Source: Persephonella sp.
GTDB lineage: Bacteria > Aquificota > Aquificia > Aquificales > Hydrogenothermaceae
Direction of reading: 5' to 3'
Assembly (NCBI RefSeq): GCF_015487465.1
Contig: NZ_WFPS01000072.1
Span: 1-46,376, forward strand
Length of the DNA stretch: 46,376 nucleotides
Within the stretch, counting starts at the first letter, position 1; every line of letters begins with the position of its first letter. Made by a program: the position numbers and the translations under genes. The notes under the pieces were generated by a model. It worked only from the letters and a program-made list of their open reading frames with translations, was not told the DNA's origin and ran no database searches. Shown here one piece after another: positions 5,585 through 20,105 of this stretch.

Positions 5585-8500
5585 TTAAACCTTTTTGTGT
5601 GTGAACTTCCATACAAATTTATAAACAATAGGAAGAAGTATCAGTGTAAGGAATGTAGAACTAAATATACCGCCTATAACGACAACCGCAATAGGTTTTT
5701 GTATTTCTGAGCCTATATCGTAGGTGAAAAGTATAGGAACAAGTCCCAGTGAAGCTGCTGTCGCCGTTATAAGAATAGGTCTTAGCCTCAGTCTTGTTGC
5801 CTTGTTTATTGACTCATCAATATCAAAACCTTCATCAAGCATCTGTCTTATGTAAGATACAAGGACAACACCGTTAAGTGTGGCAATACCAAAAACAGCT
5901 ATAAAACCTATTGCAGCTGGAACAGACAGGTTGAAGCCAGAGATATACAGAGCCAATATTCCTCCTATTGTTGCAAAAGGAACATTAAGCATTATAAGAA
6001 GAGAGTCTCTGATAGAGTTGTAGTTTATGTATAGTAGGATAAATATCAGAAGTATTGCTATTGGAACAACTATTGAGAGCCTCTCCATCGCTCTCTGCTG
6101 GTTTTCAAACTGTCCTGCAAACTCTATGAAGTATCCTTCTGGAAGCTGTATCTCTTTTTTGATGTTTTCTCTGAGCTCTTTTATAAACCCTCCCAGATCT
6201 CTGCCTTCAAGGTTCATCTGAACAAGGGCATATCTCAGTCCATTTTCATGCCTTATTTTGGAAAAACCAGGAACTACTTTTATATCGGCAACATCTTTAA
6301 GCCTGAGAAGTGTTCCGTCCTCTTTTCTTAGAAGTGGTATCTGTTTTATCTTTTCAATATTGTTTATCGTTTCATCTGGAAGTTTCAGCATAACCGGAAA
6401 ACTTATCAGTCCTTCTCTGAATTCGTTAACTTCAACTCCTGCCATATATTTACCTACAAGATTTAAAAGCCTTTCTACATCGTAGCCGTATCTATACAGG
6501 CTGTCGTATTTAGGTATTATTTGGAGTTGTAGCCTTCCTGACTGTATTTCTGTTTCCACATCCTCTGATCCTTCAGTTTTTTTGGCTACTTCTTCTACTT
6601 TCATAGCTATCTCATTTATTTTTTTAAGATCATCTCCAAAAACTTTTACGGCTATGGTAGCTCTGACACCTGACAGAAGTTCCTCTATCCTCATCGCTAT
6701 AGGCTGTGTGAAAACAAGACCTGCTACAGGAAGATCTTTAAGCTTTTCTCTCAGTGCTTTCTCAAACTCCTTTCTTGTTTTTAACTCTTTCCATTCCTTG
6801 TAAGGCTTTAGAAGTATCCATGTTTCTATGTAGGACACATCTGTTACTTCTCCCTTTTCAGCTCTGCCAACAGTAGAATAAGCATTTGTAACTACATCAA
6901 AGGATTTTGCCCTCTGCTCAATTACATTTGCTATCTTCTTTGCCTCCTCCCTTGATATGTTTGTATCTAAAAATACTTCAAGCAGAACTGCCCCTTCATC
7001 AAGCTCAGGTGTAAACTCTGTTCCCACTTTAGTCAGGAGATATATAGATCCCCCAAAAAGTAAAACTGTGGCTATAAATAGGGCAAGACCTATTTTCATA
7101 GCCCCTTTGAGCAGTTTTATGTATATTTTTTCTATAAAGTCCATCACAATTGACTTTTCTTTTCCGGGTTTTAGCCCGAAGTATGCAAGGACTGGCATAA
7201 ATACATAGGCAACAAATAGCGATGCGGCGAGGGCAACAATTATTGTGAGGGCAAGGGGTTTAAAGTATTTTCCTTCAACAGACTCAAAACTGAATATAGG
7301 AAGAAAAACAACCATTATTATGAGGATTGCAAAGAATACAGGTCTTGTTATCTCTTTAACAGATAGTTTTATTATCTCAAGTTTAAACTCTTTATCTTTT
7401 ATCCTGTCTTTGTTGTGGCTCAAATGTCTGAATATGTTTTCAATAACGACAACAGTTGCATCTGCAAAAAGTCCAAGACCTATGGCAAGCCCTCCAAGTG
7501 ACATAAGGTCTGCCGTCAATCCTAAGTTTTTCATTATTCCAAATGCTATTAGAAGGGTAAAGGGAATAGAAAGGATAACCAGAACAGCAGCCCTTACATT
7601 CCACAGATATATCATCATAGCTATTGAAACAAGTATGATACCTTCAAGAAGTGCTTTTTCTATTGTTGAGAGTGCTTTGTCTGTCAGATATGACTGATCG
7701 TAAAGTATCTTTATCTTAACATCTTCAGGGAGAACTTCTGTATTTATTCTGTCAATCTCTTTTTTCAGCTTTGTTATCAGTTCTTTTGTGTTTACATGAA
7801 CCCTTTTTACTACTATATTTCCCTGAACCTCTTTTCCGTTAAGGGTAAATGCTCCTCTTCTCTGTGGAACCTCCCCTTCAACAACATCTGCCACATCTTT
7901 TATTTTTATAACAGTTCCGTGCTCAACCTTTACAGGTATCTGTTTTATCTGTTCTACGTCTGTGATGCTTGCTACAGCCCTTATAACAAGGTCTCCTTCA
8001 GGTGTTTTTGTATATCCTCCACCTGCAAGACCTCCATTTTTTTCAAGTGTCTCAAAAATATCCCCTAAAGTTATGTTGTATTTCAGCAGTTTTTCAGGAT
8101 ACGGTTTTACAAGAAATGCTTTTTCAGGACCCCACTGGACTATCTCCTCAACCCCGTCTATAGATCTCAGGATAGGTCTGATCAGCCATTCCTGAATAAC
8201 CTTTAGATCTGTAAGTGAGTATTCAGGGTTATCTGTTGTTAAGGCATATATCATAACATTTCCAAGACCTGATGTGTTAGGTCCCATAATTGGAACTATA
8301 CCTTCAGGCAGTTTGCTCTGTGCCTCTGGAAGTTTTTCCATAACAAGCCTTCTGTCAAAGTATATATCTGTCCCGTCTTTGAAAAACAGAGCAACATAAG
8401 ACAGACCAGGAATAGATATACTCCTTACCTTTTCAACATCTTTTATTCCAGACATAACCATTTCTATTCTTTTTGTTATCAGGGCTTCAACCTCTTCAGC

Positions 8501-8659
8501 AGAGTATCCGGGAGCCTCGGTGTATATATTTACCTGTATTGGTGTTGGGTCTGGAAATGTGTCAACAGGAATGGTCTTAAAAGCATAGTATCCGTAACTT
8601 ATTATTCCTATCAGAGCAAAAATTACAAGTAATCTATACTGAAGTATCCATCTAATCAT
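5585..8659 (-). CDS. czcA: Heavy-metal RND efflux pump, inner-membrane subunit (CzcA/CusA family)
   Basis: A 1024-residue RND transporter, full length for the heavy-metal subfamily. It exports metal cations from periplasm or cytoplasm using the proton gradient. Helix one is near the N terminus (YRLLVIFALIGIISYGYYAF), followed by the porter domain with TIPVDTFPDPTP. TM4 contains GLFADATVVVIEN, retaining an acidic residue and the VEN-like proton-relay signature. A second large periplasmic loop and the final helices follow, giving the usual duplicated layout. It is the last gene of the czcC-czcB-czcA operon, 11 bp after czcB, with GGAGG before ATG. The metal (Cu, Ag, Zn, Co or Cd) cannot be decided here. 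Confidence 0.95.
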   Translation of the reverse strand: MIRWILQYRLLVIFALIGIISYGYYAFKTIPVDTFPDPTPIQVNIYTEAPGYSAEEVEALITKRIEMVMSGIKDVEKVRSISIPGLSYVALFFKDGTDIYFDRRLVMEKLPEAQSKLPEGIVPIMGPNTSGLGNVMIYALTTDNPEYSLTDLKVIQEWLIRPILRSIDGVEEIVQWGPEKAFLVKPYPEKLLKYNITLGDIFETLEKNGGLAGGGYTKTPEGDLVIRAVASITDVEQIKQIPVKVEHGTVIKIKDVADVVEGEVPQRRGAFTLNGKEVQGNIVVKRVHVNTKELITKLKKEIDRINTEVLPEDVKIKILYDQSYLTDKALSTIEKALLEGIILVSIAMMIYLWNVRAAVLVILSIPFTLLIAFGIMKNLGLTADLMSLGGLAIGLGLFADATVVVIENIFRHLSHNKDRIKDKEFKLEIIKLSVKEITRPVFFAILIIMVVFLPIFSFESVEGKYFKPLALTIIVALAASLFVAYVFMPVLAYFGLKPGKEKSIVMDFIEKIYIKLLKGAMKIGLALFIATVLLFGGSIYLLTKVGTEFTPELDEGAVLLEVFLDTNISREEAKKIANVIEQRAKSFDVVTNAYSTVGRAEKGEVTDVSYIETWILLKPYKEWKELKTRKEFEKALREKLKDLPVAGLVFTQPIAMRIEELLSGVRATIAVKVFGDDLKKINEIAMKVEEVAKKTEGSEDVETEIQSGRLQLQIIPKYDSLYRYGYDVERLLNLVGKYMAGVEVNEFREGLISFPVMLKLPDETINNIEKIKQIPLLRKEDGTLLRLKDVADIKVVPGFSKIRHENGLRYALVQMNLEGRDLGGFIKELRENIKKEIQLPEGYFIEFAGQFENQQRAMERLSIVVPIAILLIFILLYINYNSIRDSLLIMLNVPFATIGGILALYISGFNLSVPAAIGFIAVFGIATLNGVVLVSYIRQMLDEGFDIDESINKATRLRLRPILITATAASLGLVPILFTYDIGSEIQKPIAVVVIGGIFSSTFLTLILLPIVYKFVWKFTHKKV

Positions 8660-8670
8660 GATTTCCTCCT

Positions 8671-9768
8671 TTAGTGTCCTTCAACTTCAGCAAGAAATCT
8701 GCTTTTGAGGAAAGATACACCTTCTGTGATTATCTGATCACCCTCGTGAATACCGTCAATGACCCTGTAGTGACCGTCAACCTTTTCTCCTAATATTACT
8801 TCAATAGGAGAAACATGATCCCCTTCCTTTTTGAAAACAAAATATTTGTTATCTTTTATAACAACGGCTTTTTCTGGTATAAAAACACCTTTCACACTTT
8901 TTTTCTTAATCAAAACATCAACAAACATGTTAGGTTTGAGAGTATCGTTTGAGTTGTCTCCTATTATCCTTACATCATTTCTCTTGGTTTCAGGATCAAC
9001 TTTATGGCTTATAAAATCAATGATACCCCTTGTTTTTCCAAGGGGGGATATAATGCTTACTGTTTTTCCTTTCTGGAAAAATTTTGTTTCTGCTACAGGA
9101 ACCATAGCAACCACCCACAGCTTTTCGTGGGAATGTATTCTGAATATCTGTCTGGACAGGTCAACGCTGTCTCCTAATATTACATTTTGTTTTGCCACAT
9201 AGCCGTCTATATGGGATTTTAAAACAAGGTATATGTCCTGAATTTCGCCGTATGCTCTTAGTGATTCTTCCATTGCCTGAAGTTCGCCAACAGCATTTTC
9301 GTAATTTATTTTTGCCTCGAAATATCTTCCGTAAGGTATAACCTCTGACTTAAATAGCTGTTTTTCCCTTTCATAGACAGCTTTCAGATTTTTTACTTTT
9401 ACTTTCATCATTTTTATCTCAGCTATTAGCCTTTTTATCTCAGGAGAGTATATGAGAGCGACTTTTTGACCTTTTTTTACAGGATCTCCTTCTTTTACAA
9501 ATAGTTTTTTGATTATTCCATCAACAGGTGAATAAACTGCCTCTGATAGCGTGAGATCATCTTTTACTACAGCTGGATATCTTTTCTTTATGAAAACCTC
9601 TTTTTGGGAAACTTTTTCCCATTTTATATGTAGTTTTTCTATAATGTCGGGAGTTAATTCAAACTCTGTTTCCCCTTCATGTCCATGACCGTGTCCGTGA
9701 CCGCCTCCTGCAAAGACAGTTATTGATGTCATGAAAAATACAGCTATAGCCATTCTTAAAAATCTCAT
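8671..9768 (-). CDS. czcB: RND efflux periplasmic adaptor (CzcB/CusB family)
   Basis: A 365-residue membrane fusion protein that bridges the RND pump and the outer-membrane channel. The order is signal peptide (1-20), a His-rich metal-binding-like segment (GGGHGHGHGHEG, about 21-32), a first barrel/lipoyl half (VYSPVDGIIKKLFV), an alpha hairpin (about 115-170), a second lipoyl half, then beta-barrel and membrane-proximal domains. The N-terminal histidine run suggests metal scavenging in the periplasm, a feature seen in some CzcB-like adaptors. Its start overlaps the czcC stop by 4 nt (ATGA), and GGAGG precedes it. Confidence 0.93.
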   Translation of the reverse strand: MRFLRMAIAVFFMTSITVFAGGGHGHGHGHEGETEFELTPDIIEKLHIKWEKVSQKEVFIKKRYPAVVKDDLTLSEAVYSPVDGIIKKLFVKEGDPVKKGQKVALIYSPEIKRLIAEIKMMKVKVKNLKAVYEREKQLFKSEVIPYGRYFEAKINYENAVGELQAMEESLRAYGEIQDIYLVLKSHIDGYVAKQNVILGDSVDLSRQIFRIHSHEKLWVVAMVPVAETKFFQKGKTVSIISPLGKTRGIIDFISHKVDPETKRNDVRIIGDNSNDTLKPNMFVDVLIKKKSVKGVFIPEKAVVIKDNKYFVFKKEGDHVSPIEVILGEKVDGHYRVIDGIHEGDQIITEGVSFLKSRFLAEVEGH

Positions 9769-10949
9769 CTCAGTCCTCCTATTTTGATGTATTCACTGTA
9801 AGTGTGGTGGATCTGTTGTAAGGTTTGGGCTCTATAAATAAGAGCCTGTATGAATTGTTTTCTAAGATCAGAAAGCTCAAAAAGTGTTATTTCCTTTAGC
9901 TTAAAGCTTTTTTCCCCGAGTTTTAAAGCATTGTGTACAGAGGGAATGATTTGCTGATCTATCTCCTGTATCTGTTTCTTTAATAAAGAGTATTTTTCTT
10001 TCAGGCTGTTTAGTTTTGATCTGAAGTATATTTTCTTTTGTTTCAGCAGGTTTATGTAACTTTTTTTCTTGTATATAAGCTTTAATATCTCCCCCTGATT
10101 TCTGTAAAAAACAGGGATTGATGCTTTTATACCTATTCCAAATTCATACTTTCCAAGATCCACCTCATCTTCTGAAGCAGCAAACTCAATACTTACCTGT
10201 GGTTTTGCAAGAGCTTTCTGTAAAGCTATTCCTTTTTCTGCAGTTTCTATTAATTTTTTCAGATAGCTGATCTGTGGGATCTGATCTATGTCTATATCTA
10301 TCGGATCTTTTACAGCGGATATCTCTCCTTCAACATCTTTTATCTCAAAACCTGCCAGAGAAGACAGATTTTTCAGGCTGATGTTGTATTCTGTTTCTGC
10401 CTGTTTCAGCTCAATCTGTGCAACTTTCAGATCTTTTTCGGCTCTGAAAAGGTTCAGCTTTGTTTCTTCTCCAAGTTGGTAGGATTTTTCAACAAACCGG
10501 TATATATCTTTTGTTATGCTGTATTCAATCTGCTTGATTTTCATTACTTCTTTTTTGAAAAGTGCCGTATAAAATGCATTGTAAAGCCCAGATATAAATT
10601 TTCTTTTTTCTGTTTCAAACATATACTGATAAGCAGATCTTTTTGTTAAAGCTTGTTCAATGGCTTTTTTTCTAGTCCCCCACAGTTTAAGGGGCTGTTC
10701 AACGGAAAAATCCGTAAGAACTGCACCGCTCTCATCTGACTGACTGTAAAGTCTTCCAAACATAAGAGAGACTTCAGGATTAGGGATTGATCTTGCTGAT
10801 TTGATCTCACCTTCCACCTCTTTTGATTGGTTCTCAACGGCTTTCAGATAGGGATTTTTTTGCAGGGCTTTTCTGAGAACCTGATCAAATGTTTCTCCAT
10901 AACTTAAAGAAAACACAAATAGAAACAGGATCAAATACCTGTAAATCAT
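9765..10949 (-). CDS. czcC: TolC-family outer-membrane efflux protein (CzcC/CusC)
   Basis: A 394-residue outer-membrane channel subunit with a signal peptide (1-18, ending LSYG). Long amphipathic coiled-coil helices occur in two repeats (about 25-200 and 215-390), the TolC fold. No lipobox is visible. It forms the exit duct of the tripartite metal efflux system with the following two genes. The start has AGGAGG before ATG. It is probably transcribed together with the small upstream gene at 11001-11294. Confidence 0.92.
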   Translation of the reverse strand: MIYRYLILFLFVFSLSYGETFDQVLRKALQKNPYLKAVENQSKEVEGEIKSARSIPNPEVSLMFGRLYSQSDESGAVLTDFSVEQPLKLWGTRKKAIEQALTKRSAYQYMFETEKRKFISGLYNAFYTALFKKEVMKIKQIEYSITKDIYRFVEKSYQLGEETKLNLFRAEKDLKVAQIELKQAETEYNISLKNLSSLAGFEIKDVEGEISAVKDPIDIDIDQIPQISYLKKLIETAEKGIALQKALAKPQVSIEFAASEDEVDLGKYEFGIGIKASIPVFYRNQGEILKLIYKKKSYINLLKQKKIYFRSKLNSLKEKYSLLKKQIQEIDQQIIPSVHNALKLGEKSFKLKEITLFELSDLRKQFIQALIYRAQTLQQIHHTYSEYIKIGGLR

Positions 10950-11329: not shown

Positions 11330-11348
11330 TATGATAATTATTCTAAAT
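11330..11348. promoter_or_regulatory. Fur-box-like site before flavodoxin gene
   Basis: TATGATAATTATTCTAAAT, a 9-1-9 site that shares 11 of 19 positions with the sites at 13462 and 16064. It ends 21 nt before the flavodoxin ATG. Flavodoxin genes are classic targets of the iron regulator Fur. The palindrome itself is imperfect, so this is the weakest of the three sites. Confidence 0.4.
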
Positions 11349-11369
11349 ATAAAAATCAAGAGGGCAAAG

Positions 11370-11900
11370 ATGGGGAAGGTTCTTGTCCTTTATGACACAG
11401 AGACAGGACATACTAAAAAAATGGCTGAATATGTTGCAAAAGGTGCCTCAAAATTTCCTGTTGAGGTTAGGATAAAATCTGTTGAAGAAGCATCAAAAGA
11501 AGACATACTGTGGTGCGACGGTATTGCTGTAGGAAGCCCAACATATCTTGGTGTGATGTCATGGAGAATGAAAAAGTTCTGGGACAGTATTGTTGATCTT
11601 TGGGGAAATATAGATGGAAAGATAGGGTGTGCATTTTCCTCATCAGGCGGTTGGGGAGGAGGAAATGAGGTTGCCTGCATGTCTATTCTCACAATGCTAA
11701 TGAATTACGGCTTTTTAGTGTTTGGTGTAACAGACTACACAGGGGAAAAATTCACGCTCCATTACGGAGCTGTATGTGCAGGTGAGCCAAGAAAAGATGA
11801 GGAGATCAAAGCCTGCGAAAGATTGGGAGAAAGGCTTGCTCAGTGGGTTTTGGTGTATGTTGACGGGAAGAGGGAGTATTTAAAAAACTTGAAAAATTAA
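11370..11900 (+). CDS. Flavodoxin-like/WrbA-type flavoprotein
   Basis: A 176-residue flavodoxin-fold protein. The FMN phosphate loop is TETGHTKKMA near residue 10, and the second FMN loop is GSPTYLGVMSWRMKKF, close to the WrbA/NAD(P)H:quinone oxidoreductase pattern. A glycine-rich SSSGGWGGGNE loop follows. It would carry two electrons on FMN in the cytoplasm, either as a quinone reductase or as a ferredoxin substitute. The ATG at 11370 has GAGGG upstream and avoids a 13-residue extension without a ribosome binding site. A Fur-like site is placed at its promoter. Confidence 0.85.
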   Translation: MGKVLVLYDTETGHTKKMAEYVAKGASKFPVEVRIKSVEEASKEDILWCDGIAVGSPTYLGVMSWRMKKFWDSIVDLWGNIDGKIGCAFSSSGGWGGGNEVACMSILTMLMNYGFLVFGVTDYTGEKFTLHYGAVCAGEPRKDEEIKACERLGERLAQWVLVYVDGKREYLKNLKN

Positions 11901-11933
11901 AATAATTTAACCATATCTTAATAAATCCTTAAC

Positions 11934-11980
11934 TCTCACCTCCTAAAATAAAACTTGAAATAACAGGAAAGGAGGTGAGA
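11934..11980 (+). promoter_or_regulatory. 11-bp stem sequestering a ribosome binding site
   Basis: TCTCACCTCCT (11934-11944) is perfectly complementary to AGGAGGTGAGA (11970-11980). The right arm is the Shine-Dalgarno of the zinc-ribbon gene that starts at 11985, and the left arm mimics the anti-Shine-Dalgarno end of 16S rRNA (CACCTCCT). The loop is 25 nt and AT-rich. This is the geometry of an RNA thermometer or a ligand- or protein-controlled translational switch. Confidence 0.6.
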
Positions 11981-11984
11981 TTGC

Positions 11985-12155
11985 ATGAGAAAAGAAAAAG
12001 AGTTAGATGTGAGATTTGAAAAGTTTAATCTGATCTGTCCAAGATGCAAAAATCAGTGGGAGGAGGTTGTTGTGGTATCAAGGAATGTGGGAGTTCTTGA
12101 TGTTTCCTGCCCAGAATGTAAGAAAAGAATTTTGGAACTGAAAATCTTTGACTGA
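11985..12155 (+). CDS. Small zinc-ribbon protein
   Basis: A 56-residue protein with two CxxC pairs: CPRC at about 18-21 and CPEC at about 42-45, separated by a short beta-rich stretch. That is the layout of a single zinc ribbon. It begins MRKEKELDV and ends LKIFD. An exceptionally strong ribosome binding site (GGAGGTGAG) lies before ATG, and that site is paired in an 11-bp stem. No family name is given. The protein could bind RNA, DNA or metal and might control its own leader. It ends 5 bp from the convergent porin gene. Confidence 0.8.
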   Translation: MRKEKELDVRFEKFNLICPRCKNQWEEVVVVSRNVGVLDVSCPECKKRILELKIFD

Positions 12156-12160
12156 TCTTC

Positions 12161-13243
12161 TCAATAAGAAAAATACACCCTTCCTCCCAGAGCTACATTT
12201 TCTTTTTTTTCTTTTATGTACTGTAGATCACCAGAAATATAAAGATGTTTATTTAGATTTACCGTATAGTAACACTCACACACATAAATATTTTCAACCC
12301 CTGCCTTTCCCTTGATAAAACCTGCTCCCATACCGACTTTATCATCTGTTATCAATTTTTTTGTTTCAAACCCTCCAGACAAAAGGTAATTGTAATCTAC
12401 ATTAGATGTCCCACCTCTGAAAAAAACGCCAAACCTGTCAGAAAAAGCATAATCTGAGGAGATACCAAACCCTTTATGTTCATGTCCACCAAATACATAA
12501 AAATAGTAAGGTCTGACAGAAATATCTTCAGTCTCATACTCAATTTCGGCTATGCCTACATCTCCTTTATCAGGTTTATTTTGAATAAAAACTCCTGAGA
12601 AAGATATGTTTTCATGAAGATTATATTTAATATGAAATCCTGGATTGTAAGAAGGTATGGCAGCAATAGGATTATTAACAAAAACATCATTTAAAAACTG
12701 TGTATGCTCATCGTTTGCGTATCTGTTTGCATCAATAAAGGCAGCAGCATCTATAAGACCGCCAATTAAGACAAAGTTTTTTATCTTTTTCTGGTAAAAA
12801 AACTCCATAAGGTATTTTCTACCTGTGTCGTTTATGTTTTTTAGATCATCTTCAAGATCGTCTGCTGTTGAAGATATAGAGTATCCTTCACGCTCAAGTT
12901 TTTTCTTAAGACCGTTTCCAAAGGATACAGAAGCGTTTATAAATATCTCATCTGTTTCTGTAAAATCCATAGTCAGAAATACGTGTAAAGTGTTGTAAAC
13001 AGAACCGTAGTTGTTAATCTGTTGAAAAACTGTAGAATTAACAAAATCTATTCTGTGTTTGTGGAGTTTGTGCTCCTTTATAAATGGTTTTTCTGTTTCC
13101 TGAGAAAATGAGATTATAGGAATAAGCATCATAATCAATATCAAACTACATTTGTCGCACTTTCCCTTTTTTCTGGTGTTTAAATTTTTATGGATCAAAA
13201 ATAGGGACAGAACCAGCATTATAAATACCACCAGATATTCCAT
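12161..13243 (-). CDS. OprB-like outer-membrane porin with FeoB-associated-like N terminus
   Basis: A 360-residue open frame made of two unlike parts. Residues 1-33 are a membrane helix followed by a basic, cysteine-bearing KKGKCDKCS tail, like the small FeoB-associated Cys-rich membrane proteins. Residues 33-48 form a second hydrophobic stretch ending ISFSQ, which reads as a porin signal peptide. The rest is an outer-membrane barrel: the GGLIDAAAFIDANRYANDE and AIPSYNPGF blocks resemble the OprB carbohydrate-porin family, and the protein ends in aromatic VYFSY. AAGAGG precedes the first ATG. Whether one fused protein or an internal second start (TTG or ATG near residues 34-39) is used is open. 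It follows the small gene at 13255 by 11 bp. Confidence 0.75.
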   Translation of the reverse strand: MEYLVVFIMLVLSLFLIHKNLNTRKKGKCDKCSLILIMMLIPIISFSQETEKPFIKEHKLHKHRIDFVNSTVFQQINNYGSVYNTLHVFLTMDFTETDEIFINASVSFGNGLKKKLEREGYSISSTADDLEDDLKNINDTGRKYLMEFFYQKKIKNFVLIGGLIDAAAFIDANRYANDEHTQFLNDVFVNNPIAAIPSYNPGFHIKYNLHENISFSGVFIQNKPDKGDVGIAEIEYETEDISVRPYYFYVFGGHEHKGFGISSDYAFSDRFGVFFRGGTSNVDYNYLLSGGFETKKLITDDKVGMGAGFIKGKAGVENIYVCECYYTVNLNKHLYISGDLQYIKEKKENVALGGRVYFSY

Positions 13244-13254
13244 TTCTCAACCTC

Positions 13255-13446
13255 TTAAAGAGACATTCTTTTTGATCTTATCCTGTCGCATATCTCATCT
13301 ATTTTTATCTGCTGGACAAGAAGTAAACTGCCGTAAAAAGCGTTAAAGATTTTCTGTTTTTCTTCTGGGCTTTTAGTCTTACACAGAAGCTCGCAGTAAT
13401 GTCTTGAAATGGCTTCAATTCTTTGTTCTATCTCGTTTACACTCAT
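13255..13446 (-). CDS. Small helical protein of unknown function
   Basis: A 63-residue, mostly alpha-helical protein with a CELLC motif near residue 19. ATG at 13446 follows AGGAGGAGAG, which makes it preferable to an upstream start. I do not recognise the family. It is the first gene behind a promoter with a perfect TTGACA -35 box and a Fur-like operator, and the porin gene follows 11 bp later, so it is probably iron-regulated. No signal peptide or membrane segment is visible. Confidence 0.7.
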   Translation of the reverse strand: MSVNEIEQRIEAISRHYCELLCKTKSPEEKQKIFNAFYGSLLLVQQIKIDEICDRIRSKRMSL

Positions 13447-13461
13447 CTCTCTCCTCCTGTG

Positions 13462-13480
13462 ATTGAGAATTAGTCTCAAT
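13462..13480. promoter_or_regulatory. Fur-box-like operator
   Basis: ATTGAGAATTAGTCTCAAT is a 9-1-9 palindrome with eight of nine half-site pairs matched. It resembles the variant Fur box written TGAGAATnATTCTCA. It lies just after the -10 box and 15 nt before the ATG of the 63-residue gene, a position expected to block transcription when iron-loaded Fur binds. Confidence 0.6.
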
Positions 13481-13483
13481 TTA

Positions 13484-13511
13484 GATTAGAAGGAATTTTT
13501 CAAAATGTCAA
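13484..13511 (-). promoter_or_regulatory. Sigma-70-type promoter of the small-protein/porin operon
   Basis: On the minus strand a perfect TTGACA (13511-13506) is followed, 17 nt later, by TAATCT (13488-13483), or, 15 nt later, by TCTAAT (13490-13485). The Fur-like operator begins immediately downstream. Confidence 0.55.
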
Positions 13512-13612
13512 CCCCTTATAAACAGTTTAGATGTCAGACTGTTGTAAAATTTCTGTATTCTACAAAAGCAATAACCAGATAAGATTAATAAGGAAATTTA
13601 ATGTGAAAAGGA

Positions 13613-13654
13613 ATGGACGGAAATGTTTTGATCGTTGAAAGGGTGAAAAATTGA
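13613..13654 (+). CDS. Possible 13-codon leader peptide before apbE
   Basis: ATG at 13613 behind AAAGG opens a 13-residue frame (MDGNVLIVERVKN) whose TGA stop overlaps the TTG start of apbE. Such an arrangement can couple translation of a gene with a weak start to an upstream frame. It may equally be chance. Confidence 0.25.
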   Translation: MDGNVLIVERVKN

Positions 13655-14613
13655 GGATATTTATAATCTTTTTGTTTGTTTTTTGGTTTTCTTATGCTGA
13701 AGAGAGGGTAAAATACATAATGGGAGTTCCTGTTTCTGTGGCTGCCCCTGAAGTTGACGAACAGTTTTTTGAGCCGTTCAGAAAGGTTGACAAATATTTT
13801 TCCCTTTATAGAAATGACAGTGTTTTGTGCAGACTAAACAGGGAAAAACAGCTGAAGGCTGATAAATTTTTTATGGATCTTTTAAAAAAATCCATTGAGA
13901 TAAACAGGGAAACTGACGGTTTTTTTGATATCTCTATTGGAAACATAACATACAGATACGGAGATTTTGTAGAAGGGTGTGGTTTTATCAAAACAGACTC
14001 CTACGGAATGGAGAATATACTTATAAAGGAAAATCAGGTCTTTTTAAAAAATGGTATTTCACTTGATTTTGGAGGTATTGCAAAAGGGTATGCTGTTGAT
14101 ATTGTTTCAGATATGCTTAAAAAAAGAGGAATAAAAGGTATTGTTAAAGCCTCAGGGGATATCAGATGTTTAAAAGAGTGTGAAATATGCATAAAAGATC
14201 CTTTCTCAGACAAACCATTTGCATGTTTTTCCACAAAAAATGATGAAACCGGTGTCTCAACAAGCGGAATTTATGAAAGGTTTAGAGGCAGCATGCAGGA
14301 CAACCATCTTATAAACCCTTTAACAAAAAAGTCTGCATCAAATATAATCTCAATAACATTAATTGGAACTGTAGATAATACCTCTCTGGATGCTTATGCT
14401 ACAACAGTATCTGTAATGCCTGTTGAAAGGACTGTCAGCTTTTTGAATAAGAAAAAGTTAGGGTTTTTTCTGATTACTAAAGACTGTTACTTACAGGGAA
14501 GTTTTAACAGCCTTTACATAAAAGATCTAACATTTTTCTCTGATCTTAAGGAATGTAAGGAAACACAGATAAACAGCCATAAAAACGACAGAAGCAAGAA
14601 ATATACTGAATGA
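13651..14613 (+). CDS. apbE: ApbE-type FAD:protein FMN transferase
   Basis: A 320-residue exported flavin transferase that uses FAD to attach FMN to a threonine of a target protein. A signal peptide occupies residues 1-16 (ending SYA), without a lipobox. Family motifs are present: LDFGGIAKGYAVD, KASGDIRC, HLINPLTKK and DAYATTVSVM (the Mg-binding and FAD-binding blocks). The start is TTG, with GAAAGGGTG upstream. Its 3' end overlaps the convergent gene at 14527-14976 by 87 bp, so the two mRNAs are complementary there. The predicted substrate is encoded next door (15446-15967), making this a self-contained flavinylation locus. Confidence 0.92.
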   Translation: MRIFIIFLFVFWFSYAEERVKYIMGVPVSVAAPEVDEQFFEPFRKVDKYFSLYRNDSVLCRLNREKQLKADKFFMDLLKKSIEINRETDGFFDISIGNITYRYGDFVEGCGFIKTDSYGMENILIKENQVFLKNGISLDFGGIAKGYAVDIVSDMLKKRGIKGIVKASGDIRCLKECEICIKDPFSDKPFACFSTKNDETGVSTSGIYERFRGSMQDNHLINPLTKKSASNIISITLIGTVDNTSLDAYATTVSVMPVERTVSFLNKKKLGFFLITKDCYLQGSFNSLYIKDLTFFSDLKECKETQINSHKNDRSKKYTE

Positions 14614-14976
14614 ACACACCTTCAAAAACGCAAAATTTTTATTATAAAGAACTAAAAAAGGAGACAAAAAGTTAAAAAATCCTGAAAGAAACACAGTGCC
14701 TGCCAGATAAAAATGGAGTTTTTTTATCCTGAAAAAGTAAAAAATGTGGGAAATGACAAATACAGACAGAAAAAAAACCAAAAAGTGTGGAAAATGCAGT
14801 TCAATCAGACCTAAAAAGCTTTTTCCCCTGATCATTTCATCAGGATTTCCGTGTGTATACACAAGGGTTTTTTCAATAGAAAAGCCGTATTTCTGATAAA
14901 ACAGATAAAATCCTGTGAATATCTCAAATAAAAAAAGAACTCCTCCAAAAAATCCGATCAGAAACATAGACTTCAT
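14527..14976 (-). CDS. Four-helix membrane protein of flavinylation cluster (paralogue A)
   Basis: A 149-residue protein with about four transmembrane helices. Between helices one and two it has GNPDEMIRGKSFLGLIELHFPH, which is repeated in variant form in the gene just upstream (GDPDQFLEGKSLLQIVESVH), so the two are paralogues. Histidines at ELH, FPH and SH are spaced so that two could face the membrane interior as haem ligands; this is an inference. Its ATG overlaps the stop of paralogue B by 4 nt (ATGA). The family was not recognised. It is the last gene of the three-gene minus-strand operon that starts with the FMN-binding protein. Confidence 0.75.
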   Translation of the reverse strand: MKSMFLIGFFGGVLFLFEIFTGFYLFYQKYGFSIEKTLVYTHGNPDEMIRGKSFLGLIELHFPHFLVFFLSVFVISHIFYFFRIKKLHFYLAGTVFLSGFFNFLSPFLVLYNKNFAFLKVCSFSIFLASVVFMAVYLCFLTFLKIREKC

Positions 14977-15449
14977 TTTATTTTACCTGTTAAAAAGCAG
15001 TATATATTCAGTGTGTTAACTGCAGAGCAGGTGATTATAAAAGAGCAGAAAGACAAAAACTGAACATAAGAAAATGTTTCTCCCCAAAAACTGACCAAAA
15101 AAGGCGAAACAGCATAAACAAAACCTGAGATAAATCCTGTAAAAATGAAAAATACCTTAAACTTTTCTGGTATCTCTACCCTGAGCAGTATAGACATCAC
15201 AGTTAAAGCTGTAAGCATTATTAAAAAAACCTCTATATGAACGCTTTCCACTATCTGAAGAAGGCTTTTTCCTTCTAAAAACTGATCAGGATCTCCAAGA
15301 ATTGAGAGCTTTATCTGTTCAGGGAAAAGCTCCTCCATCAGATATTTATATAAAACGAACAAAATCATAAAAAACTGAATTCCAAAAGACAGATTTATAA
15401 CCAAAAAATTAATGTACCTGCTTTTTCTGTGCTGAACAGTGTATCTCAT
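14973..15449 (-). CDS. Four-helix membrane protein of flavinylation cluster (paralogue B)
   Basis: A 158-residue protein with about four transmembrane helices, related to the next gene through the shared G(D/N)PD-x6-GKS-x4-(I/L)E loop after helix one. A short basic N-terminal tail (YTVQHRKSRY) suggests a cytoplasmic N terminus. The ATG at 15449 overlaps the FMN-binding gene's stop by 4 nt, so translation is coupled; an upstream start at 15479 would give a 34-nt overlap and is less likely. Only one histidine (ESVHIE) is placed as in paralogue A. A role in moving electrons from the quinone pool to the exported flavoprotein is plausible but unproven. Confidence 0.75.
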   Translation of the reverse strand: MRYTVQHRKSRYINFLVINLSFGIQFFMILFVLYKYLMEELFPEQIKLSILGDPDQFLEGKSLLQIVESVHIEVFLIMLTALTVMSILLRVEIPEKFKVFFIFTGFISGFVYAVSPFLVSFWGETFSYVQFLSFCSFIITCSAVNTLNIYCFLTGKIK

Positions 15450-15967
15450 CTGAATTTCTCCCTGAGGTATAGATCGCATATTCCTATAACCTGTCTTGAT
15501 GCATCTGTTATCGCCCTTGAGGAAAGTGTTGCCCCTGTGATGTTAGGAATATTTTTCTTGACGGCAGGAATTCCTGATGCACCTTTGTTTTCAAAATTTT
15601 TAAACCATTTATCAGGGGGAATGTATTCAGGAGGCTCATAGAATGCTATTACCTCTATATCCTTAATACGGCAGTTTTTGTCAAGAATAAAAAGAACAGT
15701 TTCTTTTTTGGTTCTTACCCTATGGGAATGAAGAATGCCGTAACCGATCGTATTTCCGTCCTTTTTTATCAGGTATATACGAAATATTGATGTTTTCATC
15801 TTTGTTTTAAACTTTTTCTGTATCATATCCCTTGTTTTTTTGTCTATCATTATGCTTTTTTTCTGTATTTCATGGTTGGGAAATATCTTTTTCACAGCAT
15901 CATCAGGTTTTATTATCAGTCCCCCGTAAGACAGACCAGCAAGCAGTAAGACAAATAAAACAACCAT
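15446..15967 (-). CDS. Exported FMN-binding-domain protein, predicted ApbE substrate
   Basis: A 173-residue periplasmic protein: a signal peptide (1-15) and one FMN_bind domain of the RnfG/NqrC/NosR type. The flavinylation motif is NITGATLSSRAI near residues 142-153; the threonine of the GAT triplet is the expected attachment point for FMN by a phosphoester bond. The EPPEYIPPDKWFKNF block before it is also typical. AGGAGG precedes ATG. It is the first gene of the operon with the two four-helix proteins and is divergent from the porin at 16101. The shared gap contains a Fur-like site. Confidence 0.88.
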   Translation of the reverse strand: MVVLFVLLLAGLSYGGLIIKPDDAVKKIFPNHEIQKKSIMIDKKTRDMIQKKFKTKMKTSIFRIYLIKKDGNTIGYGILHSHRVRTKKETVLFILDKNCRIKDIEVIAFYEPPEYIPPDKWFKNFENKGASGIPAVKKNIPNITGATLSSRAITDASRQVIGICDLYLREKFR

Positions 15968-16063
15968 TTTACAACCTCCTGCCTAAAAGTTTATACATTT
16001 TTGTTTTTTTTAATATGAGATTTTTTCTGAAAAATCATAAAAATTTAAAATTTTTTCTTATTA

Positions 16064-16082
16064 AATGATATCAAATCTCAAT
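16064..16082. promoter_or_regulatory. Fur-box-like site in the FMN-protein/porin divergent region
   Basis: AATGATATCAAATCTCAAT matches the site at 13462 in its right half (eight of nine) and shares 11 positions common to all three sites. It ends 18 nt before the porin ATG and could also affect the divergent FMN-binding operon. An extra GATTTTT/AAAAATC hairpin-like repeat lies at 16019-16036. Confidence 0.5.
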
Positions 16083-16100
16083 TTCAAAGGAGAGGAGAAG

Positions 16101-17339
16101 ATGAGGAAGATTTTATCTTATGCACTTTTAACAGGTATTTTTTCAACATCTTTTGGGGCAGACCTTCAGGAGATAGAAGAAAGGCTCAAATCCCTTGAAG
16201 AACAGAACCAACAGCTTATTGAGGAGATAGCAGATCTAAAACAGCAGGTAGAAATACCTGAGCTTGCCCAAAAGCAGTTTTCAGGAATGGGGTATGCCGC
16301 ATCAAAAGTTTATTTCACTCCTGCAGGTCTTTCTATCGGTGGATACGGGGAGATCATATACCAGAGATTTGAAAAATCAACAAAAAAGGATATGACAGAC
16401 ATTTATAGATTTATTCCTTATATAGGTTATAAGTTCTCAGACAGTATTATCCTGAACGCAGAAGTAGAGTTTGAGCATGGGGCTGATACCAGCAGAGGCG
16501 GAAAGGTAAAAATAGAGTTTGCTTATCTTGACTTTCTTTTTAACCAGTGGGTTAACCTGAGGGTTGGAAGTTATCTTATTCCTGTTGGAATAACAAACCT
16601 TCTTCATGAGCCGGTATTCTTTAACTCTGTAAATAGACCGGAAGTTGAAACAAACATAATACCAACAACATGGAATGAAAACGGTATCTTACTGTTTAGC
16701 AATATGGAAAATTGGAACTACTACATTGGTGTTGCAAACGGATTTTACTACACAGGATTTTCGTCAAAAAAATGGGTAAAAGGAGGAAGACAGGCAGGGG
16801 GTAAGGCATATGCTGAAGATTTTGCCTTTGTAGGAAGGGTTGATTATACAGGTATTGATGGGCTTATGGTAGGTGTTTCAGGTTATACAGGAAATTCAGG
16901 ACAGGGAGACGGTTTTGATGGAAGGGTAAGTATGTATGATTTTCATCTGAGATACTCCCATAAAAATCTTGAAATAACAGGTCTTTATGTGAAAGGATTT
17001 CTCTCAGACGCAGACAAAATATCCCTCGCTGTAGGAGATACTGTAGCAAAAGAGGTTTACGGGTATTACTTGAACTTAGCATACGATGTTATGCCTTTTA
17101 TCAAGTCTGACACAGATATATCGCTTCCTGTTTTTGTCAGATACGAAAGATACAACACTCAGGAAAAGGTTCCTGCAGGATTTACAAAGAACAACCAGTA
17201 TGACAAAACTATCTGGACAGTGGGTCTGAACCTGAAACCACACCCTAATGTTGTTCTGAAGGCAGACTACCAGATAAGAGATAACAAATCTTATAACGAA
17301 TCAGATATTTTTGAGCTTGGTGTAGGTTTCATCTTCTAA
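16101..17339 (+). CDS. Outer-membrane porin with N-terminal coiled coil
   Basis: A 412-residue exported barrel protein. It has a signal peptide (1-19), then a coiled-coil segment (about 20-50, with LEEQNQQLIEEIADLKQQV) of the kind that trimerises and anchors porins. A beta-barrel follows from about residue 75 and ends in VGFIF with a terminal aromatic. The GGYGEIIYQRF and LLHEPVFFNSVNRPEVE blocks resemble phosphate-selective (OprO/OprP) and similar proteobacterial porins; the substrate is unknown. ATG at 16101 follows AAGGAGAGGAG, which rules out the longer frame from 16065. A strong terminator follows. Context suggests iron or electron-acceptor passage across the outer membrane. Confidence 0.85.
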   Translation: MRKILSYALLTGIFSTSFGADLQEIEERLKSLEEQNQQLIEEIADLKQQVEIPELAQKQFSGMGYAASKVYFTPAGLSIGGYGEIIYQRFEKSTKKDMTDIYRFIPYIGYKFSDSIILNAEVEFEHGADTSRGGKVKIEFAYLDFLFNQWVNLRVGSYLIPVGITNLLHEPVFFNSVNRPEVETNIIPTTWNENGILLFSNMENWNYYIGVANGFYYTGFSSKKWVKGGRQAGGKAYAEDFAFVGRVDYTGIDGLMVGVSGYTGNSGQGDGFDGRVSMYDFHLRYSHKNLEITGLYVKGFLSDADKISLAVGDTVAKEVYGYYLNLAYDVMPFIKSDTDISLPVFVRYERYNTQEKVPAGFTKNNQYDKTIWTVGLNLKPHPNVVLKADYQIRDNKSYNESDIFELGVGFIF

Positions 17340-17455: not shown

Positions 17456-18760
17456 ATGGAAAAGCTGAAAGTAGCATTTTATAGCTTAGGTTGCAGAATG
17501 AACCAGTTTGAAACCTCTGCTATGGAGGAGGAGTTTGAAAATAGGGGGTATATTCTGTCTGAATTTTCAGATAAGGCTGATATATATGTGGTAAACACAT
17601 GCACGGTAACAAATGACGCAGACAGAAGCTCAAGAAAAACCTTAAGACAGGCAAAAAGGAGAAATCCAGATGCTGTTATTGTTGCTACAGGCTGTTATGC
17701 ACAGGTATCCCCTGATGAGCTTTCAAAGATGGAAGAGGTTGATCTTGTTATAGGAAATTCACATAAAACGGCGGTTTTAGAGATAGTTGAGCAGTTTATA
17801 AATGAAAGAAGACAGGATAAGGTTTTTATAGATAACATATTCAGAAAAAATGATTTTGAAACTTTCCATATAAGTACATTTTACGAAGGATCAAGACCTA
17901 TTTTGAAGGTTCAGGAAGGGTGTAACAGTTTCTGTTCTTTCTGTATTATTCCTTTTGCAAGGGGAAAGGTCAGAAGTGCAAGAATAGACCAGATAGTTGA
18001 TCAGGCAAAAATACTCGTTGATAGAGGGTTTAAAGAGATAGTCCTTACAGGAACACAGCTTTCACAGTTTGGTTATGATCATAAGGAAGGATACCTTTAT
18101 GATCTTTTAAAAAAACTTATAAAGATAAAAGGTCTATACAGGGTAAGGCTTTCATCAATGGGTATAAATGAGATAGATGATAAACTGCTTGATCTTATAA
18201 CATCTGAAGAAAAAATAGCCCCCCACTTCCATCTGTCTATCCAGTCTGGTGATGACAGGGTTTTGAAGGATATGAAAAGAAACTACACTGTTTCCCAGTA
18301 TGAAAATGTTGTAAACAAGATAGTAAAAAGAAGACCTGATATTGCTATTGGAACAGACCTTATAACAGGTTTCCCAACAGAAGATGAAAAAGCCTTTGAA
18401 AACACCGTTAAAACAGTACAAAATCTGCCTCTTGCTTATATCCATGTTTTCACATATTCCCAGAGGAAAGGAACATCTGCTGAAAAGTTTGGAGACACAG
18501 TTCCCCCTCAGGAGAAAAAAAGAAGAACACAGATAATCAGGCAGATATCAGATGAGAAAAATAGAAAGTTCAGAGAAAGATATATAGGCAAACCTCTTGA
18601 GGTTCTGATAATATCAGAAAAAGATGGAAAAAAAGTAGGACTTACAGGAAACTACATACATATTAGTTTCAGCTCAGAGAAACCTGTAAATAGCATAACA
18701 AAGGTTGTTCTAACCGGGGTAGGTGAAGAAAGGGAGAATAACACAGGAAAGGAGATATAA
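17456..18760 (+). CDS. mtaB: tRNA methylthiotransferase MtaB-type (radical SAM)
   Basis: A 434-residue methylthiotransferase. The N-terminal domain ligates one [4Fe-4S] cluster via C13 (SLGCRMNQ), NTCTVT and TGCYAQ. The radical-SAM motif is CNSFCSFC, followed by IPFARGKVRS. A C-terminal TRAM-like region covers about residues 370-434. The CRMNQFE opening and overall pattern favour MtaB (2-methylthio-N6-threonylcarbamoyladenosine at A37 of tRNA) over MiaB or RimO. ATG at 17456 is preceded by AAGGAG. It heads a four-gene operon with tight spacing, one base before the next ATG. Confidence 0.88.
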   Translation: MEKLKVAFYSLGCRMNQFETSAMEEEFENRGYILSEFSDKADIYVVNTCTVTNDADRSSRKTLRQAKRRNPDAVIVATGCYAQVSPDELSKMEEVDLVIGNSHKTAVLEIVEQFINERRQDKVFIDNIFRKNDFETFHISTFYEGSRPILKVQEGCNSFCSFCIIPFARGKVRSARIDQIVDQAKILVDRGFKEIVLTGTQLSQFGYDHKEGYLYDLLKKLIKIKGLYRVRLSSMGINEIDDKLLDLITSEEKIAPHFHLSIQSGDDRVLKDMKRNYTVSQYENVVNKIVKRRPDIAIGTDLITGFPTEDEKAFENTVKTVQNLPLAYIHVFTYSQRKGTSAEKFGDTVPPQEKKRRTQIIRQISDEKNRKFRERYIGKPLEVLIISEKDGKKVGLTGNYIHISFSSEKPVNSITKVVLTGVGEERENNTGKEI

Positions 18761-18761
18761 A

Positions 18762-19331
18762 ATGAAAAAGGTATTGATGGCGTTTTTAGCTGTTTTTTCA
18801 CTTGGTTTTGGATTTGACAGTTCTATTGTTGGAAAAGAATTCAGGGATTTCAGATCTATTGATGAAAAAGGTAGAGTAGTGAAAGCTTCTGAGATTATAG
18901 ATCACAAACCTGCTGTGATTATATTCTTTGCAATTGGAGATCAGCCGGGAACATTCAAATTTTTGCCTAACATGAACAGGCTTTATGAAAAATATAAAGA
19001 CAAGGCTGTGTTTATGGCTGTTCTTTTAAGCCGATCAAATGAAAAGGAAGTTCAGGAGCTTAAAAAGATGCTTCCTTTGAAACTTCCGGTATACCTTGGT
19101 TACAGCGATGCCATCCGAAACTACGACATAAGAAAGGTTGATGTTCCATTGATAGTTTTTGTTGATAAAGAAGGACTGATAACAAACATAATCGCAAGAC
19201 CTGAATCAACGATGGAGGAGATATATCCCCCTGAAAAATCTTTAAAGGAAAAAGAAACAATAGAAGAAAGGATTTCCCAGAGTATAGAAATAATTGAAAA
19301 ATACATTAAAAAACTTATCGGAGACAAATAA
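18762..19331 (+). CDS. Exported thioredoxin-fold protein lacking redox cysteines
   Basis: A 189-residue protein with a signal peptide (1-18) and a TlpA/redoxin-type thioredoxin fold. The block AVIIFFAIGDQPGTFKFLPNM sits exactly where TlpA proteins have their WCxxC motif, but no cysteine is present. The rest of the fold (VDVPLIVFVDKEG with the cis-proline loop) is retained. It therefore probably acts as a binding or structural protein rather than an oxidoreductase. ATG at 18762 follows GGAGATATAA and lies directly after the mtaB stop. The next gene starts inside its stop codon (TAATG). Confidence 0.75.
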   Translation: MKKVLMAFLAVFSLGFGFDSSIVGKEFRDFRSIDEKGRVVKASEIIDHKPAVIIFFAIGDQPGTFKFLPNMNRLYEKYKDKAVFMAVLLSRSNEKEVQELKKMLPLKLPVYLGYSDAIRNYDIRKVDVPLIVFVDKEGLITNIIARPESTMEEIYPPEKSLKEKETIEERISQSIEIIEKYIKKLIGDK

Positions 19332-19625: not shown

Positions 19626-20105
19626 ATGGAAAGGATTAGACTTTTGAAAAAACTGATAACAGCCATTATGGAGGGGGATTACAATGAGGTTTACAGGCTT
19701 GTTGATCTTGTCAAGGTAGATCTTAACAGATCTTATGAGTATGAAGGATCGCCCCTTCATGTTGCTGTTAAAGAGGGGGATAAAGAGCTTGTGAAATATT
19801 TTCTTGAGAAAGGGGCAGATCCTAATGTAAAAGGTGCTTTCGGTGAAACTCCTCTACATATAGCTGTTGACAGGGGTTATCATGACATTGTCCAGATCCT
19901 TATTGAGAGTGGAGCTGATCCAAACGCCCAGAGTAATGAAGGAAACACACCTCTGCACCTTGCAGTTATAGCAAGCTCTGCAGATATAGCGTATGAGCTT
20001 TTGAAAAAAGGAGCAGATCCAAAAATACAGAACAAGTTTGGGAAAACTCCCCTTGACATGGCGATGGAGCTGAATGACGAAAAGATGATAAAAATCCTGA
20101 CTTAA
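19626..20105 (+). CDS. Ankyrin-repeat protein
   Basis: A 159-residue protein consisting of ankyrin repeats: about four units from residue 40 on, with repeat signatures SPLHVAVKEGDKELVKYF, TPLHIAVDRGYHDIVQIL, TPLHLAVIASSADIAYEL and TPLDMAMEL, each joined by GADPN-type turns. Residues 1-39 form a capping helix pair. No signal peptide is visible, so it is a cytoplasmic protein-protein interaction scaffold of unknown partner. GGAGGG precedes ATG. It is the last intact gene before the decayed region to its right. Confidence 0.9.
   Translation: MERIRLLKKLITAIMEGDYNEVYRLVDLVKVDLNRSYEYEGSPLHVAVKEGDKELVKYFLEKGADPNVKGAFGETPLHIAVDRGYHDIVQILIESGADPNAQSNEGNTPLHLAVIASSADIAYELLKKGADPKIQNKFGKTPLDMAMELNDEKMIKILT

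Follow-up and report, generated by a model that had tools for sequence, protein, structure and literature searches.

What is the role of a gene cluster in which the determinants of covalent flavin attachment lie among genes for outer-membrane porins and for small membrane proteins without a family name? The question is raised by a stretch of 46,376 nucleotides from Persephonella sp. (contig NZ_WFPS01000072.1 of assembly GCF_015487465.1), hereafter the window, which stems from a 1.83 Mb genome of the phylum Aquificota that is 99.9% complete. The original prediction for positions 11,330 to 17,339 listed a flavodoxin, an OprB-like porin, the flavin transferase ApbE, an exported flavin mononucleotide (FMN)-binding protein with a flavinylation motif, two four-helix membrane proteins and a second porin, all of which are indeed encoded there, and proposed an iron-linked extracytoplasmic flavin electron-transfer block. 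The core of this proposal finds support in the synteny seen throughout the phylum, in the operator that the module has in common with feoAB, and in genes for FeoB, Fbp, FTR1 and Fur that adjoin the module outside the phylum. We consider it probable that five core genes, encoding the FMN-binding protein (FMNb), the four-helix proteins TM4a and TM4b, ApbE and one of the porins (porinA), specify an extracytoplasmic ferric reductase that is induced by iron starvation.

The core genes are closely packed. FMNb (15446..15967, 173 residues), TM4a (14973..15449, 158 residues) and TM4b (14527..14976, 149 residues) form a run on the minus strand and are taken as one operon, because consecutive genes overlap by ATGA at both the FMNb/TM4a and the TM4a/TM4b junction. 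The gene for the exported ApbE (13651..14613, plus strand; PF02424, 3.4e-46) is oriented towards this operon, and its 3' end shares 87 bp (14527-14613) with that of TM4b, an arrangement that recurs in relatives (e.g., loci L030 and L033). PorinA (16101..17339, plus strand), an outer-membrane beta-barrel with an N-terminal coiled coil that belongs to no Pfam family, is encoded divergently from the FMNb operon and adjoins FMNb in most Aquificota loci and in many others. The protein FMNb, the sole FMN_bind protein in the source genome, passes the Pfam cut-off (PF04205, 2.5e-7), as does ApbE, and contains the flavinylation motif NITGATLSS with Thr147 as the predicted acceptor. Of 54 distinct FMNb orthologues, 53 retain an S/T-G-A/S-T motif, the lone exception being a truncated gene, and natural fusions of FMN_bind with ApbE (L199:4767-6263, L200:6557-8272, L251:4402-5748) unite acceptor and transferase in one polypeptide. 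ApbE is encoded together with a candidate substrate that scores above the FMN_bind cut-off and carries the acceptor motif, as is characteristic of ApbE-dependent extracytosolic flavinylation, and FMNb is predicted to be flavinylated by ApbE at Thr147.

With regard to conservation within the Aquificota, TM4a has homologues in 23 of 61 relatives, and nearly all loci that were read carry the same gene set. Of 136 Aquificota genomes, 71 encode the membrane protein, 65 FMN_bind and 71 ApbE; the membrane protein is accompanied by FMN_bind in 64 genomes (Fisher P = 1.7e-29) and by ApbE in 65, i.e., in 65 of the 71 that contain it (P = 2.9e-24). These P values take no account of shared ancestry, but the gene order, too, is retained from genus to genus and leads to the same conclusion. 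Where one gene occurs without the other, the locus is mostly incomplete or decayed, or the match falls below threshold. FMNb abuts and overlaps the gene for the membrane protein in nearly all intact loci that were read. A fusion of TM4a and TM4b, with about 310 codons and encoding a protein with eight helices, is present in Aquificaceae, Sulfurihydrogenibium and one other genus of the window's family; an 8-helix protein from another genus of this family shares 96% identity with that of Sulfurihydrogenibium yellowstonense, which makes Hydrogenothermaceae the probable family. In addition, a lipoprotein containing two CxxCH motifs has a homologue in about 13 of the 61 Aquificota genomes, as a rule encoded next to porinA and FMNb; no such homologue was found in the window's genome (G000). 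The co-conservation at issue in the original prediction, followed up by a search across genomes, applies to FMNb, the membrane protein, ApbE and porinA. It does not extend to the flavodoxin, which together with a neighboring zinc-ribbon gene occupies the same place in L030, L033 and L034 and is linked to the module only in the window's genus, nor to the OprB-like porin (porinB), whose synteny in L030, L033, L034, L037 (partial) and L038 is found mainly in that genus plus one other. Judged from gene order, flavodoxin and porinB are local additions.

The promoters connect the module with iron uptake. In relatives, TTGAGATTnAATnTnAA precedes FeoB by about 253-265 bp with steady spacing in a sizeable share of the 30 loci examined, and a site of this type is also present before feoA in the window's own genome. 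A generic Fur pattern, run over the genome, matched mostly inside genes, its exact matches including two sites of the window. As this pattern had been written with the window's sites in view, a symmetric weight matrix derived from ten feoA sites of relatives, without any module sequence, served as the fair test. It assigned scores of 12.2 to the site at 13463-13479 (TTGAGAATTAGTCTCAA), which is located between the porinB operon and ApbE, and of 10.5 to that at 16065-16081 (ATGATATCAAATCTCAA) in the divergent FMNb/porinA promoter region, values that are also reached by about 2-4% of control upstream regions. Of 39 loci, drawn from both families, 30 have a site scoring at least 8 before porinA, vs. 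19 of 364 control genes (P = 1.4e-24), the 39 loci being not fully independent since some represent the same or near-identical genomes reached twice. Throughout the phylum, operators orthologous to 16065-16081 precede porinA or FMNb, often lying directly before FMNb where porinA is absent. The site at 13463-13479 is conserved in L030, L033, L034 and L037, and homologues of the small helical protein encoded next to it are preceded by an operator in eight of nine loci. Of the three promoters originally proposed to share a Fur-like site, two therefore stand, whereas the third, upstream of the flavodoxin gene, does not: the weaker site TGATAATTATTCTAA (11332..11346) is an exact match to the generic pattern, yet an overlapping stretch at 11331 scores only 2.9 on the feoA model, and in the three relatives with the flavodoxin gene no upstream site scores above 3.9. 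The module and feoAB promoters share an operator, to which a Fur-family repressor is predicted to bind; the source genome contains four matches to the Fur family over the cut-off, one of which is partial. Elsewhere in this genome (G000:C83:7431-7445, i.e., L083:2932-2946), a near-perfect Fur/PerR-like palindrome, TGATAATAATTCTCA, is situated 57 bp before a gene for an AhpC-family peroxiredoxin, which suggests PerR-type control of that gene via an operator close to the feoAB one.

Outside the Aquificota, a profile of the 8-helix protein matched 18 of about 255 genomes, mostly over one half only, and a profile of single four-helix proteins matched 43 of 386 genomes spread across many families. 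Twenty further loci were read after the latter search, resulting in a total of 38 outside loci. Typically these feature a single four-helix gene, often in the order porinA–FMNb–four-helix protein and accompanied by ApbE; as judged by reading, an FMN_bind-like neighbor is present in about 30 of the 38 and a porinA-like one in about 24. FeoB is encoded beside the module in five of them (L199, L200, L237, L244, L252), which is unlikely to occur by chance (1e-3 to 1e-7). Further neighbors comprise Fbp-type ferric transporters (FbpBC in L192, FbpABC in L240 and L157), FTR1 (L251), Fur (L186, L240, L252) and an iron repressor of the DtxR type (L237). L157 (RFFP01000035.1) stems from a metagenome-assembled genome labelled 'Acidobacteria bacterium' and carries an Aquificaceae-like pair of FMNb and 8-helix genes directly downstream of FbpABC; its label or binning may be wrong. 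A plasmid search did not return any named relatives of the four-helix protein.

What, then, is the membrane protein? TM4a, which exhibits four hydrophobic segments and a conserved E68-x-x-H71, and its paralog TM4b, with conserved P63-H64 and H77, match no Pfam or NCBIfam family, and neither they nor the 8-helix and outside-phylum four-helix proteins match the Pfam families of the known flavinylation membrane classes. For the fused form a confident AlphaFold model was obtained (predicted local distance difference test score, pLDDT, 93.7; predicted template modelling score 0.90). Foldseek comparison of this model with the PDB gave no match at E <= 0.001 (best E 1.4) and hence only noise, so that no fold family is claimed. 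Across 52 of 52 aligned proteins, the only invariant histidines are His72, His224 and His237 (L043 numbering), joined by Lys281; the equivalents in the window are TM4a-His71, TM4b-His64 and TM4b-His77, and Lys119 of TM4b is likewise invariant. Where there is a single gene, one helix of its product contains the pattern E-x-x-H-x-H; another histidine follows 13 residues later but is missing in a few cases. In the two-gene form the first histidine resides only on TM4a, the second and third on TM4b, and the same division is seen in a two-gene locus outside the phylum (G221). This complementary loss suggests that the site lies between protomers and that two identical subunits gave way to an obligate heterodimer. 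Judging by helix ends and positive-inside loops, His72 and His224 are probably near the periplasmic face. As the cofactor, heme b is favored by analogy with DUF4405 and FezC proteins (PMC10979944), a metal or quinone site being possible instead. A more far-reaching proposal, to which we give about even chances, is that four-helix membrane proteins of an undescribed family, found in Aquificota and here and there in other phyla, act as electron carriers that drive a flavin ferric reductase under Fur control in conjunction with a dedicated porin, and that the gene for such a carrier was duplicated in one lineage, the copies keeping complementary histidines (H0 vs. H2 and H15) such that the homodimer became an obligate heterodimer and was later fused into an 8-helix chain.

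The following mechanism would accommodate these features. ApbE would attach FMN covalently to Thr147 of exported FMNb, and TM4a and TM4b would pair up in the inner membrane, the pair corresponding to the 8-helix protein of Aquificaceae or to a homodimer elsewhere. The quinol pool or a donor in the cytoplasm would supply this pair with electrons, which would then pass to the periplasmic FMN via a histidine-ligated cofactor, most likely heme b held between TM4a-His71 and TM4b-His64. PorinA would admit Fe(III) or iron chelates, the flavin would reduce Fe(III) in the periplasm, and FeoB or some other iron transporter would then bring Fe(II) into the cell. Under plentiful iron, the module and feoAB would both be shut off by a Fur-family repressor. 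In some relatives, the two-CxxCH lipoprotein could extend the chain outward. The earlier suggestion that iron is reduced so as to pass the porin is not a necessary step of such a scheme; periplasmic reduction feeding FeoB fits better.

Several points weigh against a ferric reductase of this kind. Some genomes of the window's genus possess FeoB but not the module, which is therefore dispensable. Transporters of the Fbp type take in Fe(III) without reduction, and their presence next to the module requires no reductase. The division of the histidines into one plus two makes a classical two-heme bis-histidine arrangement not obvious. Some clusters include the two-CxxCH lipoprotein, hinting at electron transfer on a wider scale, and the similar palindrome before ahpC in the same genome makes a PerR-like regulator of the module possible. 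Some evidence agrees with a flavin system that reduces ferric chelates or siderophores to free the iron, or that serves the uptake of heme or another metal, rather than acting on free Fe(III) delivered via the porin: the Fbp loci take in ferric iron, and a TonB-dependent receptor is encoded beside the module at two loci outside the phylum (L242, L249). Most loci, however, contain porinA and lack a TonB receptor, and we regard this variant as unlikely. About equally unlikely is a respiratory or extracellular conduit, in which electrons would travel from the flavin to the lipoprotein and leave through the porin for an external acceptor, serving energy metabolism and not iron assimilation. In its favor, the porin is a steady partner and the lipoprotein, where present, usually sits beside porinA and FMNb, but this cytochrome is missing from the window's genome and from many other genomes that bear the module, the promoter carries the feoAB operator, and the neighbors elsewhere are genes for iron uptake.

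More improbable still is a system that provides electrons in the periplasm for the repair or detoxification of oxidized thiols, methionine or peroxide and is governed by a Fur-family protein resembling PerR. Several Fur-family proteins in the genome, the palindrome preceding the ahpC-like gene and an AhpC/TSA-family protein encoded within the window at 18723-19331 are compatible with such a role. On the other hand, an operator model trained on feoA promoters only still picks the porinA promoters, and no reductase for substrates of this kind is conserved beside the module. That the genes are unrelated neighbors would agree with the flavodoxin, zinc-ribbon and porinB genes being linked only locally; for the five core genes it is already refuted by synteny and fusions across phyla, and as a general explanation its probability is negligible. 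The ferric reductase remains our preferred reading.

To the left of ApbE, the window encodes the small helical protein, porinB, the zinc-ribbon-like protein and the flavodoxin. The small helical protein (13255..13479, minus strand; homologues in nine loci), encoded directly before porinB and regarded as accessory like the latter, has a longest frame with a TTG start that overlaps the operator, and its true start is thus likely further in. PorinB (12161..13243, minus strand) passes the OprB cut-off (PF04966, 7.6e-7; 29.3 bits vs. 22.9) and starts with a short membrane segment ending in GKCDKC, followed by an apparent second signal sequence. The likeness of this N terminus to FeoB-associated proteins, noted in the original prediction, exists as a resemblance and stays below the cut-off of PF12669 (13.8 bits in the window and 18.1 in one relative vs. 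27). The zinc-ribbon-like protein (11985..12155, plus strand, 56 residues) has a double CxxC and sub-threshold zinc-ribbon matches, and the flavodoxin/WrbA-like protein (11370..11900, plus strand, with the true start at about 11370) passes the cut-off of PF00258, Flavodoxin_1 (1.9e-11). The two-CxxCH lipoprotein of the relatives is highly conserved, comprises 540-670 residues, belongs to no Pfam family and is encoded between porinA and FMNb or just beyond porinA (e.g., L030:6129-8144, L041:7781-9409, L043:7298-8911); its structure model was poor (pLDDT 42) and was not used. Sequence searches of the PDB with this protein, porinA and the membrane protein gave no meaningful match. In genome G017, a decaying locus (L035:8460-15161) contains a truncated FMNb gene and broken TM4a and porinA genes, and the cytochrome lipoprotein is joined in frame to a porinB-like barrel. 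No Rfam element was found in the region. Just upstream (5585-10949) lies an efflux operon of the heavy-metal resistance-nodulation-division type (AcrB/CusA-like pump, CusB-like fusion protein, outer-membrane factor), which was rejected as a partner of the module as it was not seen beside it in relatives. Elsewhere in the window, the 30-kDa and 49-kDa subunits of Complex I are fused in one gene of the NuoCD type (39117-40853), and a 159-residue protein (19626-20105) appears ankyrin-repeat-like by eye.

Deep-branching chemolithoautotrophs such as the heat-loving Aquificota need iron, and their handling of ferric iron is little described; the module provides a defined candidate. It also supplies a provisional function for three unannotated protein families, i.e., the four-helix protein, porinA and the two-CxxCH lipoprotein, and clearly illustrates how the copies of a duplicated gene can lose conserved histidines in a complementary manner. 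For the study of flavinylation, it adds a membrane component without a family name and ties the process to porins and FeoB. No description of the cluster was found in the open-licence literature, which may hold an unlabelled mention in supplementary tables.

Among established systems, the extracytosolic flavinylation systems built on ApbE and FMN_bind, with NapH-, MsrQ-, PepSY-, DsbD- or NQR/RNF-like membrane parts, stand closest, several of their classes being tied to iron assimilation (Meheust et al., 2021; PMC8238504). They share with the module ApbE, an exported FMN_bind protein with an S/T-G-A-T motif, a dedicated membrane protein and the links to iron, whereas the membrane protein described here falls outside all of their Pfam families; in the main text of that article neither 'porin' nor 'Aquific' occurs. 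The b-type cytochromes of the DUF4405/FezC group, which are associated with flavinylation and ferrosomes and among which FezC has been proposed to form heme sites by homodimerization (Huang et al., 2024; PMC10979944), resemble TM4a and TM4b as small multi-helix membrane proteins with conserved histidines and a link to iron. The module differs by the lack of a DUF4405 match, by four helices with HxH plus H divided between two subunits and by its porin partner, and the main text of that article mentions neither porin nor FeoB nor Aquificota. PepSY-like ferric reductases (FoxB, VciB) likewise represent Fur-linked periplasmic ferric reduction that feeds Fe(II) uptake, according to the papers cited for them, but the module has no PepSY domain, and its flavin carrier is FMN_bind instead of DUF2271. 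Porin-cytochrome conduits of the outer membrane also combine a barrel with an electron carrier, and some module clusters add a c-type lipoprotein; unlike them, the window's genome has no homologue of this lipoprotein, and the module relies on a flavin carrier and an iron-type operator. On the basis of its genes, the module appears to work like the known flavinylation systems, but with a membrane component that matches none of their classes.

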